Virus record (IMG/VR): IMGVR_UViG_3300033153_002141
Coordinates: 1 to 21,421 of that record
Length of the DNA: 21,421 bases
Source of the DNA: a virus
Reading direction: 5' to 3' (one strand)
A model generated the notes under the pieces. It was not told where the DNA came from. It did no database searches and saw nothing but the letters and a program-made list of their open reading frames with translations. Positions within the stretch are counted from its first letter, which is position 1; each line of letters opens with the position of its first letter. Both the position numbers and the translations under genes were made by a program. Shown piece after piece: positions 1,789 to 20,618 of this stretch.

Positions 1789-3050
1789 TATGTAGCCTCC
1801 GCTGTTTTTATGGTACAAGTCCATGATATTGTTGTCGCTGCTATTCCTGTAGCTTTAACAGATAAACCACCATTTGTAGTATCTGCAACTACGGCTATAC
1901 TTGATGCTGATAGAGAAGCATCAGTAAATAGTTGAGTTACTGTCGGTGTTCCAACTAATGCAGTTGTAGAGGCATTAGCTCCTCTTCTAATCAACCCTAC
2001 TACATCAAACATAACAGCAGCAGATCCACCATCATTACCTACAATGATAGCGTAGAATGACTGTGCTGATAAGTCTGGAAGTATCAACTGATTTGTTGCT
2101 GATGCTGCTGCTTGGTCAGAAGTGATTGTTGTTTGTGTTGCATCTGTTGTCTCAACATTAAGTGTGGTTATACCACTCTGCCCTTTACCTACTGTCGTGT
2201 GTGTTCCGATAGCAAACTTAGAATGAATGTTGTTGGTTGTACCAGCTTGACCTATTGCCAAACTATTTAATCCAGTTGGTAATGATGACTGTCCCATTGA
2301 GATAGCACCAGTTGAACGCATACTCATTACATTGTTTGTTTCAGTTGTAGCATGAGAAGCAGAGAAATCAACTTGTGTTCTTGATGCTGTTCCACTAATT
2401 TCCCAATGTCTAAAACTTAATCCTAATTCATTTGCATAAGTTGAGCTAGACAGTCCATTTCTTTGAAGCAGAAGAGTTTTAGCTGCAGCAGTTGTGTCAA
2501 CACCAAGTCCTGTTGCTATTGTTGTTTTACCAGTAGTACCTGTCATGGTTATTTTCTGATGACTAGATACATTAACACCATCACAAGCAATAACGAGTGA
2601 TGTTGCTATTGTTGAAGCATCAATATATTTCTGATACCCTGATGGTGCTGCTGGAAAAAGTATCTTACTCCACGATGTTCCTGAGTCTCCAACATTTAAA
2701 TCACCTGTAACCGTTAAGCTTGAATCAACAGTAGACCCCCAAGAAGCATCAGTTCCATCACTTGTAAAAACCTGACCTACTGTACCAACAGGAAGTCTTG
2801 TTGTAACATTAGAAGCATTTTTAAATATAATATCACCTCTAGTTGTCATAGGGTCAGAAAAACCTCCACCACCAGCAGATGTTGTTCCTTTCCATACCGC
2901 AGCACCTGAAGTAGCATCTAAACACTCATATGCTTCATCTGCTGTAACATCTAACCATTTAGAACCAACTGCATATCCACTTCCTGAGTCATCTGTAACT
3001 GCTGGTGCTACTGTTGCATCTCGTTCTCTGTGCTGAAGCACTTGCATCAT
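1788..3050 (-). CDS. Tail fibre, distal part (second frame of an apparently split fibre)
   Basis: This reading frame encodes about 420 residues of low-complexity, Thr/Ser/Ala/Gly-rich beta-structured fibre sequence. The segment DDSGSGYAVGSKWLDVTADE followed by AYECLDATSG is typical of the middle of long phage fibres rather than of an N-terminus, which suggests that this is the continuation of the fibre encoded at 2989-4605. The frame opens with TTG at 3053 and ATG at 3050 and 3047. I use 3050, but no strong Shine-Dalgarno site precedes it, so it may not be an independent start. The overlap with the upstream frame is about 60 bases and the relation is +1. The C-terminus flows by TAATG into the DUF4376-like gene. 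Either a translated second subunit, a programmed +1 frameshift product, or a fibre broken by an indel or assembly error. Confidence 0.8.
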   Translation of the reverse strand: MMQVLQHRERDATVAPAVTDDSGSGYAVGSKWLDVTADEAYECLDATSGAAVWKGTTSAGGGGFSDPMTTRGDIIFKNASNVTTRLPVGTVGQVFTSDGTDASWGSTVDSSLTVTGDLNVGDSGTSWSKILFPAAPSGYQKYIDASTIATSLVIACDGVNVSSHQKITMTGTTGKTTIATGLGVDTTAAAKTLLLQRNGLSSSTYANELGLSFRHWEISGTASRTQVDFSASHATTETNNVMSMRSTGAISMGQSSLPTGLNSLAIGQAGTTNNIHSKFAIGTHTTVGKGQSGITTLNVETTDATQTTITSDQAAASATNQLILPDLSAQSFYAIIVGNDGGSAAVMFDVVGLIRRGANASTTALVGTPTVTQLFTDASLSASSIAVVADTTNGGLSVKATGIAATTISWTCTIKTAEAT

Positions 3051-4605
3051 CAAGTAAAGCTCTACCAGCAGTAGTCAATGTAGCTACAGCATAAGTATCT
3101 GAAGCAGTTGTGTATATCATCTTATCTGCTGCTGTTGTTAATCCAGCTATTGAAGTTAATCCAGCATCATTAGGCTCATATACTCCTGTGTGTGTATGGT
3201 TACCTATAGCTAGTTGTCCTGCTCCTGTTCCAACATCTCCATTAGTATCAAGTAATTCATAAGTAACATCAGCATCAAGAACATTGGTTGCTGAGTAGGC
3301 TTGAACTGTTGTTCCTATGTCTCCATCAACAACAACATCAGCGTGAGAAGTCTCGTTAGCTGAAGTTACATCTGCTCCTGTTGATACTCCACTAAGTTTA
3401 GTTTTTTCTGTAGCTGTATATACTTTATTAGTTGTTCCATCTACATGATTATCAACATCAAAAGCATCTCCCTCAACAGAAGTAGGGTCATAAGTTGCTT
3501 TAGACATATCTCCTGAACCTGTGGAAACACCATATAATAACACATCAAGGTTATGTCCTGATATTCCTGCTGTAGCTAAAACAACGTTAACCCCACTTGT
3601 TACAGTAACATCTACACCATTTATTAGCTTTAACCCATTTACAAACACATCTATATGTCCTGCATCATAACCTCCATCAATAGGGAAAGTTGTAAGTGAT
3701 ACACCATCATAGTCTCCACTTGCTGAGCCTATTACGAAAGCTTCTCTTGCAGATGCTCCACTTACTACAGGGTCAAGAGTATCCCAAGCTGTTCCATTAT
3801 AGATTTTTAGCTTTTTTGTAACACTATAAAAGTACATGTCTCCCTCATCAGCACTTACTGGGTCTGATGCGAAAACTCCATGATAAATCCCAGTAAACTC
3901 ATCTAAACTTGCTTGAGCTGCACTCTCTGAAGCTGCTGCATTAGTCTCACTTGTAGAAGCTGCTGATTCACTAGCTGCTGCATTAGTTTCAGATGTACCT
4001 GCTGCACTCTCTGAAGCTGCTGCATTAGTCTCACTTGTAGAAGCTGCACTCTCTGAAGCTGCTGCATTAGTCTCACTTGTAGAAGCTGCACTCTCTGAAG
4101 CTGCTGCATTAGTCTCAGATGTACCTGCATTAGTTTCAGATGTTCCTGCTGCTGACTCACTAGCTGCTGCTGCACTCTCTGAAGCTGCTGCTGCTGCTGC
4201 ACTAACTACTGCCTCATCTGCTGCTGTCTCTGCTCTTTCTGCTGAAGGTTGGGCTAATGTAGAACCAAACTCTTCTGATGTAGTAGCTACCTCTAACCAG
4301 AATGTACTATCAGCAGGAGGAGCAACATAGTAAAGAATACTATTATCTACTACTGCCCACTTATCTACTGCCACTAAGTCATCAGATTGAGCAACATCTA
4401 GTCCCCTCTTCCATAGGTTGTCTGGATAACTCCAATCTGCTTGGTCTGTCCCTCCACCTTCTAATTCATCTTCACTCCCATCTGGGTCTAATCCATCATC
4501 ATAGATGTATACATAAGGTCTTGCATATTGTTCACTTCTAATTATGAAGTCACTCAAGAACCTATTTATACTACCATCAGGGTAGAATATCTTGCTGCTT
4601 ATCAT
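2989..4605 (-). CDS. Tail fibre, proximal part with virion-attachment domain
   Basis: This ORF encodes 538 residues. Residues 1-115 form a compact N-terminal domain (IFYPDGSINRFLSDF, then ILYYVAPPADSTFWLEVATT) analogous in size and layout to the tail-attachment domain of T7 gp17; the sequence resemblance is weak. Residues 133-233 are an Ala/Ser/Thr/Glu/Asn-rich repeat region, likely a trimeric helical shaft. Residues 234-525 are mixed beta regions, including GDMYFYSVTKKLKIYNGTAW and HTHTGVYEP. It reaches a typical mid-fibre sequence, ALLDDASASAQR, and then reads TRCNSSTSSYR and stops, while the expected fibre sequence continues in the +1 frame. The start ATG has an AAAGGA site. It lies directly after tail tubular protein B, where T7 would have internal virion genes. 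The fibre identity is strong; the true C-terminus is uncertain. Confidence 0.88.
   Translation of the reverse strand: MISSKIFYPDGSINRFLSDFIIRSEQYARPYVYIYDDGLDPDGSEDELEGGGTDQADWSYPDNLWKRGLDVAQSDDLVAVDKWAVVDNSILYYVAPPADSTFWLEVATTSEEFGSTLAQPSAERAETAADEAVVSAAAAAASESAAAASESAAGTSETNAGTSETNAAASESAASTSETNAAASESAASTSETNAAASESAAGTSETNAAASESAASTSETNAAASESAAQASLDEFTGIYHGVFASDPVSADEGDMYFYSVTKKLKIYNGTAWDTLDPVVSGASAREAFVIGSASGDYDGVSLTTFPIDGGYDAGHIDVFVNGLKLINGVDVTVTSGVNVVLATAGISGHNLDVLLYGVSTGSGDMSKATYDPTSVEGDAFDVDNHVDGTTNKVYTATEKTKLSGVSTGADVTSANETSHADVVVDGDIGTTVQAYSATNVLDADVTYELLDTNGDVGTGAGQLAIGNHTHTGVYEPNDAGLTSIAGLTTAADKMIYTTASDTYAVATLTTAGRALLDDASASAQRTRCNSSTSSYR
3907..4116 (-). repeat. Five 42-bp tandem repeats in the tail fibre gene
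   Basis: The fibre protein repeats a 14-residue unit ETNAAASESAASTS five times in a row (residues 164-233), with small changes such as AAGTS and AAQAS. Degenerate half-units precede it (residues 140-163; bases up to about 4188). At DNA level this is a 42-bp tandem repeat rich in GCTGC on the plus strand. Repeats of this kind form the extended shaft of lambda-Stf-like fibres and commonly change copy number. Confidence 0.9.
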
Positions 4606-7588: not shown

Positions 7589-7984
7589 TTAATAACCATA
7601 CTTCTGATGGTGTAGTCTGTGACAACACGCACAATACAATATACACTTCTCAGCTTCTTCTTTAATTACCTTGAAGGGGCGGCTCATAGCCAGTAGTTCT
7701 GATACTCCTGCTACCTTCTCTTCTGGGTTTATATGATGAAAGTCAAAGCATACCATATTATCTACAGTAGCTTCCTTAGCACATCCCTTACATTTATTTC
7801 CTAACATTTCTATTAGTTCTAACTGCATCCTTACTTGTCTTCTTTTTCTCTCTTGTCTTTTCCTTTTGTTTTCACAAGGCTTACAAGTAGCTCCTCTTCC
7901 TACACTTTTGGTTGCTGAGGTCATATAGACCCCGCATCCTGTGCAGAAGAGATTACTTTTACTACCATGGTTAGTGTTATTCAT
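7589..7984 (-). CDS. HNH endonuclease with N-terminal zinc ribbon
   Basis: This 131-residue protein has an N-terminal zinc-ribbon-like Cys set (C14-x2-C17, C34-x2-C37) and a very basic linker (residues 40-52, Lys/Arg rich). The HNH core follows: C65-x2-C68, DFHH (H83, H84), and C118-x2-C121 followed by HRLHH. The overall plan is the same as that of the HNH protein at 18385-18771. Such genes are usually free-standing homing endonucleases that spread between phages by cutting intron- or gene-less alleles. It occupies the slot between capsid and tail tubular A, with gaps of about 20 bases on either side, as an inserted gene would. Its activity and target are not visible. Confidence 0.9.
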   Translation of the reverse strand: MNNTNHGSKSNLFCTGCGVYMTSATKSVGRGATCKPCENKRKRQERKRRQVRMQLELIEMLGNKCKGCAKEATVDNMVCFDFHHINPEEKVAGVSELLAMSRPFKVIKEEAEKCILYCACCHRLHHQKYGY

Positions 7985-16273: not shown

Positions 16274-16681
16274 TTATCTTTTCTTTAGATATGTAACAGC
16301 CTTATTAAGTCCTTTAATATTATCTCCTAATATACCTATAGCTCCATTACATCCTCTACACAGTACTCCTCTAAAAGCTTCTAATCCTTCAAGCTCATGG
16401 TCATGGTCATATACTAAATCTTTCTCACTTCCACATACTTCACAACAATGAGAAGATGACATACACATATCATATTCTTCTACTGTTAGATTGTACTGCC
16501 TACTTATAAACTCTTTCCTTTTCTTACCTGGGTCATAATTTAACTTACCTAACTTCTTTTGACATCCATTACATAAATTCTTCCTACCAAATTTAGACAT
16601 TTTATCTCTAACAAATGTTTCTAATTCCTCCACAGTATTTGCAGTTAAACCACAACCTCTACATTCTCTAATGCACTTCAA
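16274..16681 (-). CDS. Endonuclease VII-like HNH/His-Me nuclease
   Basis: This 135-residue protein contains a C-terminal recombination endonuclease VII domain: CEVCG, then DHDHELEGL, then FRGVLCRGCNGAIGIL (D92-H93-D94-H95, R104-G105, C108, C111-N112), followed by a helical DNIKGL segment. An N-terminal zinc-ribbon-like set (C7, C10, C37, C40) precedes a basic linker. T4 endonuclease VII resolves branched DNA before packaging; many relatives are free-standing homing nucleases. The frame begins with TTG at 16681, overlapping the polymerase end by 14 bases, with GGGAGA about nine bases upstream. Because a RusA-like resolvase is also present, a homing role is at least as likely as junction resolution. 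Confidence 0.88.
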   Translation of the reverse strand: MKCIRECRGCGLTANTVEELETFVRDKMSKFGRKNLCNGCQKKLGKLNYDPGKKRKEFISRQYNLTVEEYDMCMSSSHCCEVCGSEKDLVYDHDHELEGLEAFRGVLCRGCNGAIGILGDNIKGLNKAVTYLKKR

Positions 16682-18392
16682 ACCAATTTCTCCCTATCTT
16701 ACTTTCTGAATGTATAGGCATCCTAATACCTACAGCCTCACATGCAGTCAATGAACTCTCTTCTAAAATTTTACCTAGTTTCTCAGCTTGGTCCTCTTTA
16801 CATTCAAACTGTAACTCATCATGTATCCAACCTATTTGATTACACACTATACCTTCCTCCTTTATTCTTTTATCCACTTCAACCATCCAGAGTTTACTTA
16901 TGTATGACCCTAATGATTGTAGTAGTGTATTAAGAGCTGAGTGGGGTGACCTTATAAATAATCTCCTACCTGTTATACCTTTAATCCATTTCTTCTTAGC
17001 TGCTTTAGCTACCGCTTCATGCAACTGTTTAAATCCTGGTGTACCTGCAAAGAACTTTGTCTTTAATCTCTTACCATCCTTAGCTGTACCTTGTACTATC
17101 TCTCCTACCTTTGCATCTCCACCTCCATATACAACTGAGTATATAAAAGTTTTAGCTTGGTCTCTTGTCTTTAAACCTGCTGCCTCTTTATTAGCCGTGT
17201 GGATATCACCCTCCAATATTAGTCCTGCATATCTTCCTTTATCATAAGGGTACATATAGTGTGCAAGACATCTAAGCTCCACCCCACTTAAGTCTGCCCC
17301 TACATTAACCATACCCTCACTTGCTATGAAGAGTTCTCTAGCTTCTTTGCCTTTGTATGCTCTAGGGCTTGGTACTTGTCCTAAATTAGGATTACTATGA
17401 GTGGCTCTACCACTTACAGCACCTAATATATCCATACTACCATGAAGTCTATCACCCCTAGAGAGTTTTAACCAAGCCTTATCACCAGTTGCTAATTGCC
17501 CTAGTAGTTTATTAACTTCTAAGTAATGTAGTAGTGGTTCAAGGAATGGTTCTTCTCCAAACATATCTTTTAATGTCTCTGCATCTGTCTTAGGGTTACC
17601 CTTCTCAGTCAGTGCCCACTTCTGTTTACCTAGTACCTTCTCTACCCACCATACGATATGATTACCACTACCAGGGTTAAAAGTCCTAAGCTTAATAGGC
17701 TGATGCGGTCCCACCGTAGAAATACCCATTCTTCTAAAAGGTCTCTTTGGTGTTTTAACCTTTCCATCTGGAAGAAACATAGGAATAAAAGTTCCCCATA
17801 AATCTTCCTCAGCCACCTCTTTTTCTTTAACCAACTCAACATGTAACTCTCTTCCTTTCTTTATATCAAATTTCCAGCCTTTAATGTATTGTTTTGTAAC
17901 TACTTTTTGTACATCTTGTTCAAGCTCCAATGCCTCTTGAGGCAACCAGATTGTTTTTCTTTTAAGATGTGTATAGAGTTTACTTGTGACTTTAGTATCT
18001 TGTTTGTTATACTCCAACATCTTCTCTGTAAATTTACTCCAATCACTATACTCTCCTTTCTTCTCTCCTAGTCTTTCTCCATATGCATCTAGACTGTGGC
18101 TCCAAGACTTATCTTTATCATAATAAGCCAACTTAGCTAATATTAATGTATCTATTATCTCCCCTTTGTATTTTAGACCCCCTAATTTTTTTAATACAGG
18201 TAGGTCATATCCTATTATATTGTGCCCAATTATAAGTGAGGCTTCCTCAAGGTCTTTAATAAGCCTACTTAATTCATGTGGTCTATATTCTTCATACTTC
18301 TTAGTATCTAAATTATAAGTGACAGCACAATGAAAGGTATCTACCTCTAAGAGTAAACCATTAGTCTCAATATCAAAAACCAGGCTAGTCAT
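16668..18392 (-). CDS. T7-type family A DNA polymerase, compact
   Basis: This 574-residue replicative polymerase has an intact 3'-5' proofreading domain: DIET (D7, E9), HNIIGYD (D63), YNKQD (Y128, D132). The polymerase domain has motif A GADLSGVELR (D367), motif B RDQAKTFIYSVVYG (R410, K414, Y418, Y422) and motif C WIHDE (H524, D525, E526), and the family's C-terminal His (NWFEVH). T7 gp5 has 704 residues. The shortening includes the thumb region (about residues 200-240), where T7 has its thioredoxin-binding segment, so processivity may not depend on host thioredoxin in the same way. The start must be near residue 1 because DIET follows at once. It has no clear Shine-Dalgarno site and overlaps the HNH gene upstream by eight bases (ATGACTAG). 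Confidence 0.97.
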   Translation of the reverse strand: MTSLVFDIETNGLLLEVDTFHCAVTYNLDTKKYEEYRPHELSRLIKDLEEASLIIGHNIIGYDLPVLKKLGGLKYKGEIIDTLILAKLAYYDKDKSWSHSLDAYGERLGEKKGEYSDWSKFTEKMLEYNKQDTKVTSKLYTHLKRKTIWLPQEALELEQDVQKVVTKQYIKGWKFDIKKGRELHVELVKEKEVAEEDLWGTFIPMFLPDGKVKTPKRPFRRMGISTVGPHQPIKLRTFNPGSGNHIVWWVEKVLGKQKWALTEKGNPKTDAETLKDMFGEEPFLEPLLHYLEVNKLLGQLATGDKAWLKLSRGDRLHGSMDILGAVSGRATHSNPNLGQVPSPRAYKGKEARELFIASEGMVNVGADLSGVELRCLAHYMYPYDKGRYAGLILEGDIHTANKEAAGLKTRDQAKTFIYSVVYGGGDAKVGEIVQGTAKDGKRLKTKFFAGTPGFKQLHEAVAKAAKKKWIKGITGRRLFIRSPHSALNTLLQSLGSYISKLWMVEVDKRIKEEGIVCNQIGWIHDELQFECKEDQAEKLGKILEESSLTACEAVGIRMPIHSESKIGRNWFEVH

Positions 18393-18771
18393 GGTGATGT
18401 ATCATATGACAGTTATGACATAAGAACTCACATTTATCAATCTCTTTCTTTAGTGTCTCCCAATTAGCTGTAATAATATTACCAGGATTTATATCCTTAT
18501 TCTCTTTTTCATGGTGCCAAGCAAAAGGACTAGTAGTATTATGTGTGAAGCCACACCTATTACATTTAAACTCTCCTCCTAAATACTCTCTAAGGTTATC
18601 CCTATTAGCTTTTCTTTTCTTATGTCTTCTCTCTGCTACTTGTTTATTGTAACATGTTCTGCACAGTTTTCTAGTGTTGCTTTTAGTCTTATCTTGCCAC
18701 ATAATAGTTCCTCTAGATAGTTCTTCTCCACACCCTCTACAATCAGAAGTCTGTGTTTGCTCCTTGCTCAT
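18385..18771 (-). CDS. HNH endonuclease between primase-helicase and DNA polymerase
   Basis: This 128-residue protein has an N-terminal zinc-ribbon (C11-x2-C14, C37-x2-C40), a basic linker (NKQVAERRHKKRKANRD) and an HNH core: C70-x2-C73, FAWHH (H86, H87), C118-x2-C121 and a terminal HHHD. It shares this design with the HNH protein at 7589-7984. The start at 18771 has AAGGAGAG, which lies inside the last codons of the primase-helicase gene (overlap 29 bases). Its end overlaps the polymerase start by eight bases. It is therefore probably a homing nuclease that has become woven into expression of the polymerase. T7 carries comparable HNH genes beside its replication genes. Confidence 0.9.
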   Translation of the reverse strand: MSKEQTQTSDCRGCGEELSRGTIMWQDKTKSNTRKLCRTCYNKQVAERRHKKRKANRDNLREYLGGEFKCNRCGFTHNTTSPFAWHHEKENKDINPGNIITANWETLKKEIDKCEFLCHNCHMIHHHD

Positions 18772-20371
18772 TCTTAAACTCTCCTTCCTCTTCTACTTCT
18801 TCTGGTACTAGTCTACCTATGTCAGCTATATACTTAGCATGTCCTAGTTCACCTACCTTCTCTCCTTCTTCTCTATCCTTAAGACATCTTATTAGTCTAA
18901 GGTTACTTCTCTCTGGGTCTTGTTGATTACCTTCTAATCCTATGACCTTATCTGATAGCTGTGCAATGCTCCCTGAGCCTCTTAAATGACTAAGGGATAC
19001 TTGTACCCCATCTTCATGTCCTCTGTCCCCTGATGGTCTTTTAAGGTGGCTTACAAGCATCATCCCTACACCTGTCTCTTCTACCAATGACCTTAACTTG
19101 GTCATAAGGACATCTATTACTCTTCTTTCATTGTCCCCCATATCCTCTAGTCCAGATACCACAATAGAAATATGGTCAAGGATAATAATGTCACACCCAG
19201 CACCAACTGCCAAGTACCGTAACTTATTAAGCAGACTATCAGAGTCAAGGCTACCAAAATGGTTATATAAATATAGCCTGTCAGTCCCAATGACTTTCTC
19301 ATAAGCCCCTTTAATTTTTGTAACATTCTCGGGTACCTCCTTATACTTACTCCACTTAGACTTACCTACTATAGATTCATTTAATTCTATACCTAAGTAA
19401 GCTCTCTTACTAACACTATTGTTCTCCTCTAGTGCAACATGCCCTACTGTTAGATTATGCTCAGTAAGTAGGTGATGTCCTATCTCTCTAACTATTGTAC
19501 TCTTACCCATACCTGAGCCTGATACAAAAGTAGTCATAGCCCCTTTAGCTATCTCTAGTCCTGTATATTGTGTATCATATACCTCATCACTAGCACTATC
19601 CTCCATAAGGGCTTCAAATCCTCCCTCATTAGCATTAACTATACCACTTGGAGTAAACTTCTTAGTCTCATAGTAGTAATGTAGTAATCCTGCCTTACCT
19701 TTGTCTACTAATATCTCATTAGCATCCTTATAGGTACCTGTGTCTATTGTATACACCTTACCTGGTGGAAATAGTGTACTGACTTCTGATACTGCCTTTC
19801 TACCTGCATCATCATTATCAAACCATAATACTATCTCATTAAAGCTATTAATAAATTCTATATGTTCCTTCAAGTCCTTCTTAGCTGTAGCTGCCCCATT
19901 AGAGATACTTATTACAGGATACTTACCACCATGTGCCTCTGATACACTCATAGCATCAATTTCACCCTCAGTAATAGTTATCCTCTTACCTCCTTGTCTC
20001 CATTGGTTCATACCAAATGGTACAGCTTCCTTATTCTTACCAGACCAACTAAAAGTCTTGTCTTTGTATCTCATCTTCTGAGCTACTATTGCTCCCTCTT
20101 TATTAAACATCTGTGCTATATGTTCACCATTCTCTCCCCTAAAATAACTAAATTGCTTGTATGTCTCAGGGGATATGCCTCTTATCTTTCTATCTATCTC
20201 TACTACCTTCTTTAAGGTTTCATCTTTAAACTCATTCATGCTCTGTATAGCACCTCCTTCCTGCTGTTCTTTCCAACTCTTGTCACAGCTAAAACACTTC
20301 CATATACCATCTGTTTCAGGTACAGGTGAGGCGGCATCACTACTACCACACCACTTACAAGGACTACCCAT
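18743..20371 (-). CDS. T7 gp4-like primase-helicase
   Basis: This 542-residue protein (T7 gp4: 566) unwinds DNA and makes primers. Its parts in order are a zinc-binding domain C5-x2-C8 and C26-x2-C29; the TOPRIM primase with ITITEGEIDA (E135) and VLWFDNDDAG (D185, D187); and the RecA-type helicase with Walker A VSGSGMGKST (K290), Walker B DIIILDH (D399), the DNA-facing LVSHLKRP, and LRGSGSIAQLSDKVIGLEGNQ. It overlaps the small gene upstream by eight bases (ATGGGTAG), with no clear Shine-Dalgarno site. A second start at M45 (20239), preceded by a strong AAGGAGGTG (20251-20259), would give a form lacking the zinc domain, as with T7 gp4B. The HNH gene begins inside its 3' end. Confidence 0.97.
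   Translation of the reverse strand: MGSPCKWCGSSDAASPVPETDGIWKCFSCDKSWKEQQEGGAIQSMNEFKDETLKKVVEIDRKIRGISPETYKQFSYFRGENGEHIAQMFNKEGAIVAQKMRYKDKTFSWSGKNKEAVPFGMNQWRQGGKRITITEGEIDAMSVSEAHGGKYPVISISNGAATAKKDLKEHIEFINSFNEIVLWFDNDDAGRKAVSEVSTLFPPGKVYTIDTGTYKDANEILVDKGKAGLLHYYYETKKFTPSGIVNANEGGFEALMEDSASDEVYDTQYTGLEIAKGAMTTFVSGSGMGKSTIVREIGHHLLTEHNLTVGHVALEENNSVSKRAYLGIELNESIVGKSKWSKYKEVPENVTKIKGAYEKVIGTDRLYLYNHFGSLDSDSLLNKLRYLAVGAGCDIIILDHISIVVSGLEDMGDNERRVIDVLMTKLRSLVEETGVGMMLVSHLKRPSGDRGHEDGVQVSLSHLRGSGSIAQLSDKVIGLEGNQQDPERSNLRLIRCLKDREEGEKVGELGHAKYIADIGRLVPEEVEEEGEFKNEQGANTDF
20251..20259 (-). promoter_or_regulatory. Internal Shine-Dalgarno site in the primase-helicase gene
   Basis: AAGGAGGTG on the minus strand stands 11 bases before the in-frame ATG at 20239 (Met45 of the primase-helicase), just after the zinc-binding domain. 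It is the best anti-Shine-Dalgarno match I saw in the window, although its spacing is a little long. It corresponds in place to the internal start of T7 gene 4 that makes the helicase-only 4B form (there at Met64). The functional reading is an inference. Confidence 0.6.
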
Positions 20372-20618
20372 CTATATCATCATCAAGTAGTTCAAATAAT
20401 ACTCTATACATACTATCATCTACTAAATCAGGTCTGTCTGTTGCAAACATACCTACAGTTGTATTATAATAATGTCTATACTTTAATATTTCTTGCTTAA
20501 AATCACCATATACTTTATTAAGTATCTCTTCATGGTGTTCTTTTAGGATTGCTTTTCCATCCTCTAAACCATATTCAGGATATTCCCATTGAAGTTGTTC
20601 TGCTTCTTCATGTGTCAT
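20364..20618 (-). CDS. Hypothetical acidic protein upstream of primase-helicase
   Basis: This 84-residue protein, rich in Glu, Asp and aromatic residues (LQWEYPEYGLEDGKAILKEHH, ending LFELLDDDIDG), is mostly helical. It begins at a TAATG overlap with the RusA-like gene and has a GGGAGG site about eight bases upstream. It overlaps the primase-helicase start by eight bases. I do not recognise the family. Location suggests that it belongs to the replication transcript and that its translation helps drive that of the primase-helicase. Confidence 0.8.
   Translation of the reverse strand: MTHEEAEQLQWEYPEYGLEDGKAILKEHHEEILNKVYGDFKQEILKYRHYYNTTVGMFATDRPDLVDDSMYRVLFELLDDDIDG

Follow-up and report, generated by a model that had tools for sequence, protein, structure and literature searches.

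The window, by which we mean the whole stretch of 21,421 nucleotides analyzed here, is a 21.4-kb IMG/VR virus record (IMGVR_UViG_3300033153_002141) from a marine, T7-like phage. On its minus strand it carries a T7-like set of replication and structural genes, namely those for primase-helicase, an HNH-like protein, family A DNA polymerase, endonuclease VII, portal and capsid. Among these genes lie three small ORFs of HNH or endonuclease-VII-like type (7589-7984, 16274-16681 and 18385-18771, minus strand), one of them between primase and polymerase. A tail-fibre-like gene (2989-4605, minus strand) contains an Ala/Ser/Glu/Thr repeat (AASESAA.TSETNA), which in another frame (ORF 3903-4202) is translated as a Gln-rich stretch. 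The features of the primase-helicase locus are as follows.

20364..20618, minus strand: small upstream ORF (84 aa, from the ORF list), its stop overlapping the full-length start
20369..20371, minus strand: full-length start ATG, without a Shine-Dalgarno (SD) site by sequence and SD energy, overlapping the stop of the upstream ORF (ATGGGTAG)
18743..20371, minus strand: T7 gp4-like primase-helicase gene, full-length form (4A-like, 542 aa; Pfam Toprim_2, Helic-prim_T7_N, DnaB_C)
20285..20359, minus strand: zinc-binding motif C5-x2-C8-x17-C26-x2-C29 (translation; the N-terminal zinc region of T7 gp4 aligns with it)
20251..20259, minus strand: internal SD-like site AAGGAGGTG (-13.0 kcal/mol with the anti-SD)
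20237..20239, minus strand: internal in-frame start codon ATG (Met45); in 10 of 12 clade members this linker has an SD-preceded ATG or GTG
18743..20239, minus strand: short form predicted from the internal start (4B-like, 498 aa; RNA-polymerase fold and helicase, without the zinc domain)

Residues 4-535 of the primase-helicase align nearly end to end with T7 gp4 (PDB 6n7i, E 1.5e-83), and the protein combines in one chain the N-terminal zinc motif, Toprim/RNA-polymerase fold and RecA-like helicase of the T7 gp4 type. Its translated N-terminus reads MGSPCKWCGSSDAASPVPETDGIWKCFSCDKSWKEQQEGGAIQSM45N, and the start of the RNA-polymerase domain is close to the RGI motif, at about residue 63. Met45 follows the last cysteine by 16 residues and precedes RGI by about 18, so the internal in-frame start falls between zinc and RNA-polymerase domains. 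In minus-strand order, AAGGAGGTG (20259-20251) is followed by CTATACAGAGC (11 nt) and then by the ATG at 20239-20237. An earlier, sequence-only reading had proposed that this gene uses two starts in the manner of T7 4A/4B; on rechecking, its coordinates, the cysteines C5, C8, C26 and C29, and the SD 11 nt ahead of in-frame Met45 were all correct. It was equally right that no SD precedes the full-length ATG (+0.5 kcal/mol) and that the internal site is strong.

The full-length ATG has an in-frame TAG directly ahead of it and, because it overlaps the upstream stop codon, is probably translationally coupled to the ORF at 20618-20364. A search of ten records from close relatives gave no match to this 84-aa ORF. 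The same overlapping layout is seen at the DNA polymerase gene of the window, whose start (18392) lies inside the ORF 18771-18385 and is also without an SD. A full-length start lacking an SD is not general in the clade, three members of which (L002, L004 and L005) have a strong SD there.

At -13.0 kcal/mol, the internal SD is the strongest among all starts examined, the 27 gene starts spanning +0.6 to -12.0 kcal/mol. The complete AAGGAGGTG occurs once in the window (0.20 expected; at least one copy in 19 of 100 shuffles), and its AGGAGG core is not enriched there, with 18 occurrences found and 15.6 expected, so the site can be meaningful only through its position and conservation. Synonymous shuffling of the window alone matches or exceeds the strength of the site about once in eight times (p about 0.13); codon choice at the site is thus not unusual by itself, since Glu-Gly-Gly codons readily spell an SD. 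Measured the usual way, from GGAGG to ATG, the spacing is 13 nt, yet it is 4-9 nt at the window's own genes with a clear SD, 3-10 nt (mostly 4-7) at the genes of Roseobacter phage CRP-143, and 7 nt at T7 4B. Efficient initiation at the internal start is therefore doubtful in the window and in its nearest relative, L001, which shares the spacing. The window's internal start may be weak, or may depend on ribosomes already translating the full-length frame, and the short form may be a minor product in this phage because the spacing is long.

Most relatives have a shorter spacing of 10 nt. The exact AAGGAGGTG is exclusive to the window; relatives carry AAGGAGG, AAGGAG or GGGAG instead. L001 has AAGGAGG ahead of an ATG at 13 nt, and it differs from the window by two compensating 2-nt indels between SD and start (GAIQS in the window, GYTEP in L001) that leave both the spacing of 13 and the frame of the ATG intact. 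AAGGAG is found with ATG at an aligned spacing of 10 in L002 and L004, with GTG at 10 in CRP-143, L124 and L126, and with ATG at 7 in L125, while GGGAG occurs at 10 in L003 and, with GTG, at 7 in L442. A G-rich site precedes the ATG in L445. The two exceptions, L005 (GTG) and L121 (ATG), have a weaker SD and retain the start. Loss of Met45 in close relatives, which the sequence-only reading had named as an outcome that would refute it, did occur in five of them (CRP-143, L124, L005, L126 and L442), but an initiation-competent GTG is kept in each. Valine at the start position is encoded by GTG in all five, although GTG makes up 14-24% of the Val codons in those genes. On these sequences, the start codon in the window clade turns over from ATG to GTG without being lost.

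Conservation, which the sequence-only reading had suggested checking in close relatives, was evaluated on about 430 loci from IMG/VR and GenBank phages, annotated phages among them, that encode a homologue whose zinc motif could be read; after redundancy reduction (below 88% identity), 151 representatives remained. The initial scan used a peptide pattern beginning at Met45 (MNEFKDET), which introduces selection bias; later scans used queries without the linker, and most loci were collected in this way. The genome collection held weak relatives only (29% identity or less, or short matches). The score of each gene was the strongest SD energy ahead of an in-frame ATG or GTG anywhere in the linker between zinc and polymerase domains, with -8 kcal/mol or stronger counted as strong; it was compared with gene-specific synonymous codon shuffles, each of which was rescanned. 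A strong SD with a start was present in 10 of the 12 non-redundant members of the window clade, against 3.05 expected (P 1.6e-6), and thus in 9 of the 11 relatives of the window. With ATG starts only, the count was 7 of 12 (3.04 expected, P 0.004). The T7 subfamily (at least 55% identical to T7) gave 12 of 19 (4.4 expected, P 2.8e-5), and all other representatives 14 of 120 (7.1 expected, P 0.005). These P-values are approximate because clade members share descent, though the relatives share just 52-81% identity with the window; taken one by one, most relatives give p of 0.1-0.5 in synonymous shuffles. Equal-length windows elsewhere in the same genes were depleted in such sites: 5 of 203 such windows in the window clade (13.8 expected), 15 in the T7 subfamily (32.1 expected) and 35 in all others (68.9 expected). 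Among control internal ATGs, 1.8% attained this SD strength. The clade has therefore retained the SD and a start, which may be GTG, beyond what the protein requires. The excess depends on how much spacing is allowed: with at most about 17 nt allowed between SD and start it holds, 8 of 12 members passing (2.5 expected) and the window failing, and with a limit of 15 nt 3 of 12 pass. Tightening the limit thus removes the window and L001.

We also considered RNA structure at the internal site. A hairpin of 4-5 bp, whose AUACAG loop is constant and whose stem occurs in three versions that all preserve pairing, can be drawn between or over SD and ATG in the window (20237-20255, minus strand) and at the same place in L001-L004 (-4.4 to -6.3 kcal/mol). 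We do not claim it as a real element, since by these tests it does not exceed chance: 21% of other internal ATGs in the same genes fold as well, and synonymous shuffles give p of 0.05-0.35. Over 81 nt, local structure in the window does not stand out (z about -1). Pairing with CTCC adjoining the ATG could hide the SD in L002-L004.

We consider it probable, at about 0.68, that the primase-helicase gene of the window has a T7-like dual start yielding forms with and without the zinc domain. The comparison supports this reading because SD and start are kept in the clade beyond codon choice, and the T7 subfamily gives the same signal. Ribosomes finishing the upstream ORF would begin at the ATG that overlaps its stop and produce the complete primase-helicase, zinc domain included, whereas others, or those reading through, would begin at Met45 by way of the internal SD and make a zinc-less helicase, the presumed equivalent of T7 4B, which could join hexamers. 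We infer actual initiation at Met45, the amount of each form and the mixing of forms in hexamers.

The case for the dual start has to be weighed against an unlikely but by no means negligible explanation, in which GAA GGA GGT encodes a flexible Gly/Glu-rich linker that merely resembles an SD and Met45 is an ordinary residue. The window-only shuffles, the individual relatives and the unenriched AGGAGG all agree with such a by-product, and linkers in this family are often Gly-rich. What it does not accommodate is the strength of the clade-wide excess together with the depletion in the rest of the gene, the preference for GTG over other Val codons at the start position, and the Gly-Asp linkers of cyanophages, which never spell an SD. 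That the internal SD instead slows or pauses elongating ribosomes between the zinc and polymerase domains, aiding folding rather than initiation, seems improbable to us: location at a domain boundary and the long spacing to the ATG would suit it, but the in-frame ATG or GTG downstream and the GTG preference among Val codons are left unexplained, and a general pausing effect of SD-like codons is itself disputed. Very improbable is the use of Met45 as the sole functional start, with the zinc domain no longer made in this phage. The full-length ATG does lack an SD while the internal one is the strongest of the window; however, the phage retains the zinc-region sequence with its four cysteines, primase activity requires the zinc domain, as established for T7, and the overlap of the full-length ATG with an upstream stop is repeated at the DNA polymerase gene, also without an SD.

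It is already known that T7 gp4 has two forms and that the short one arises at an internal start served by a separate ribosome-binding site (PMC12593628). New here are the codon-level evidence in a distant clade, the turnover of the start codon and a map of the lineages that lack SD support. Both 4A and 4B forms are annotated in the T7 and T3 records, and the window resembles T7 gene 4A/4B (63-kDa and 56-kDa gp4) and T3 4A/4B in family, in the linker position after four cysteines and in having an SD with an in-frame start. In T7, where the internal site is AGGAGGTAAACCAATG and the start is Met64, the spacing is shorter, as given above; linker sequences are unrelated, and the SD-less full-length start is a further difference of the window. 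The nearest relative of the window in the phage collection, CRP-143 gp19 (OR420748.1, 66.9% identical), has an SD (AAGGAGAGG) and a start in the same linker, but this start is GTG rather than ATG and the record annotates a single "DNA primase". As a cultured relative, CRP-143 is suited to testing the dual start.

A FastTree tree of the region downstream of the linker recovers two well-supported groups that lie far apart, one with the 12 rows of the window clade and the other with the 19 rows of the T7 subfamily. The presence of the SD needs at least 18 changes on this tree. Lineages between the two groups mostly have no SD in the linker, so a single inherited site for the window clade and T7 is unproven; an SD is also present in the neighbouring Lau218 (L108). 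We tentatively propose, as a possibility well short of an even chance, that T7-like phages have acquired or reacquired the zinc-less form several times, its start turning over between ATG and GTG, and that in the window's clade it is made by a long-spaced SD working mainly while the full-length frame is already being translated, an arrangement that would set the proportion of the two forms. A distant clade that keeps its internal start against codon drift, set beside many lineages without an SD, offers a comparative test of when a mixed hexamer pays.

Several other lineages differ in their linkers. In a T7 sub-branch (L331, L329, L117, L315 and L324, including Pseudomonas phage CHF17), there is no SD before linker starts and sometimes no start, which suggests from the sequences that the 4B form has been lost. 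No SD was found in the gp4 linker of cyanophages, and their full-length gp4 starts have an SD in 0 of 19 cases. In cyanophages L110, L227, L233-L279 and relatives, a Met about 14 residues past the last cysteine is present in nearly all representatives while its neighbours vary; this conserved residue might be an SD-independent internal start. Desulfovibrio phage ProddE 006A/006B (MZ666938.1) has two nested forms and two ribosome-binding sites annotated by its depositors, but no ATG or GTG was found in its linker, the annotated second start lying beyond the linker scanned. In Rhizobium phages RHEph21 (L102) and RHEph01 (L118), only the internal primase-helicase start is annotated, and zinc-region homology extends upstream of it.
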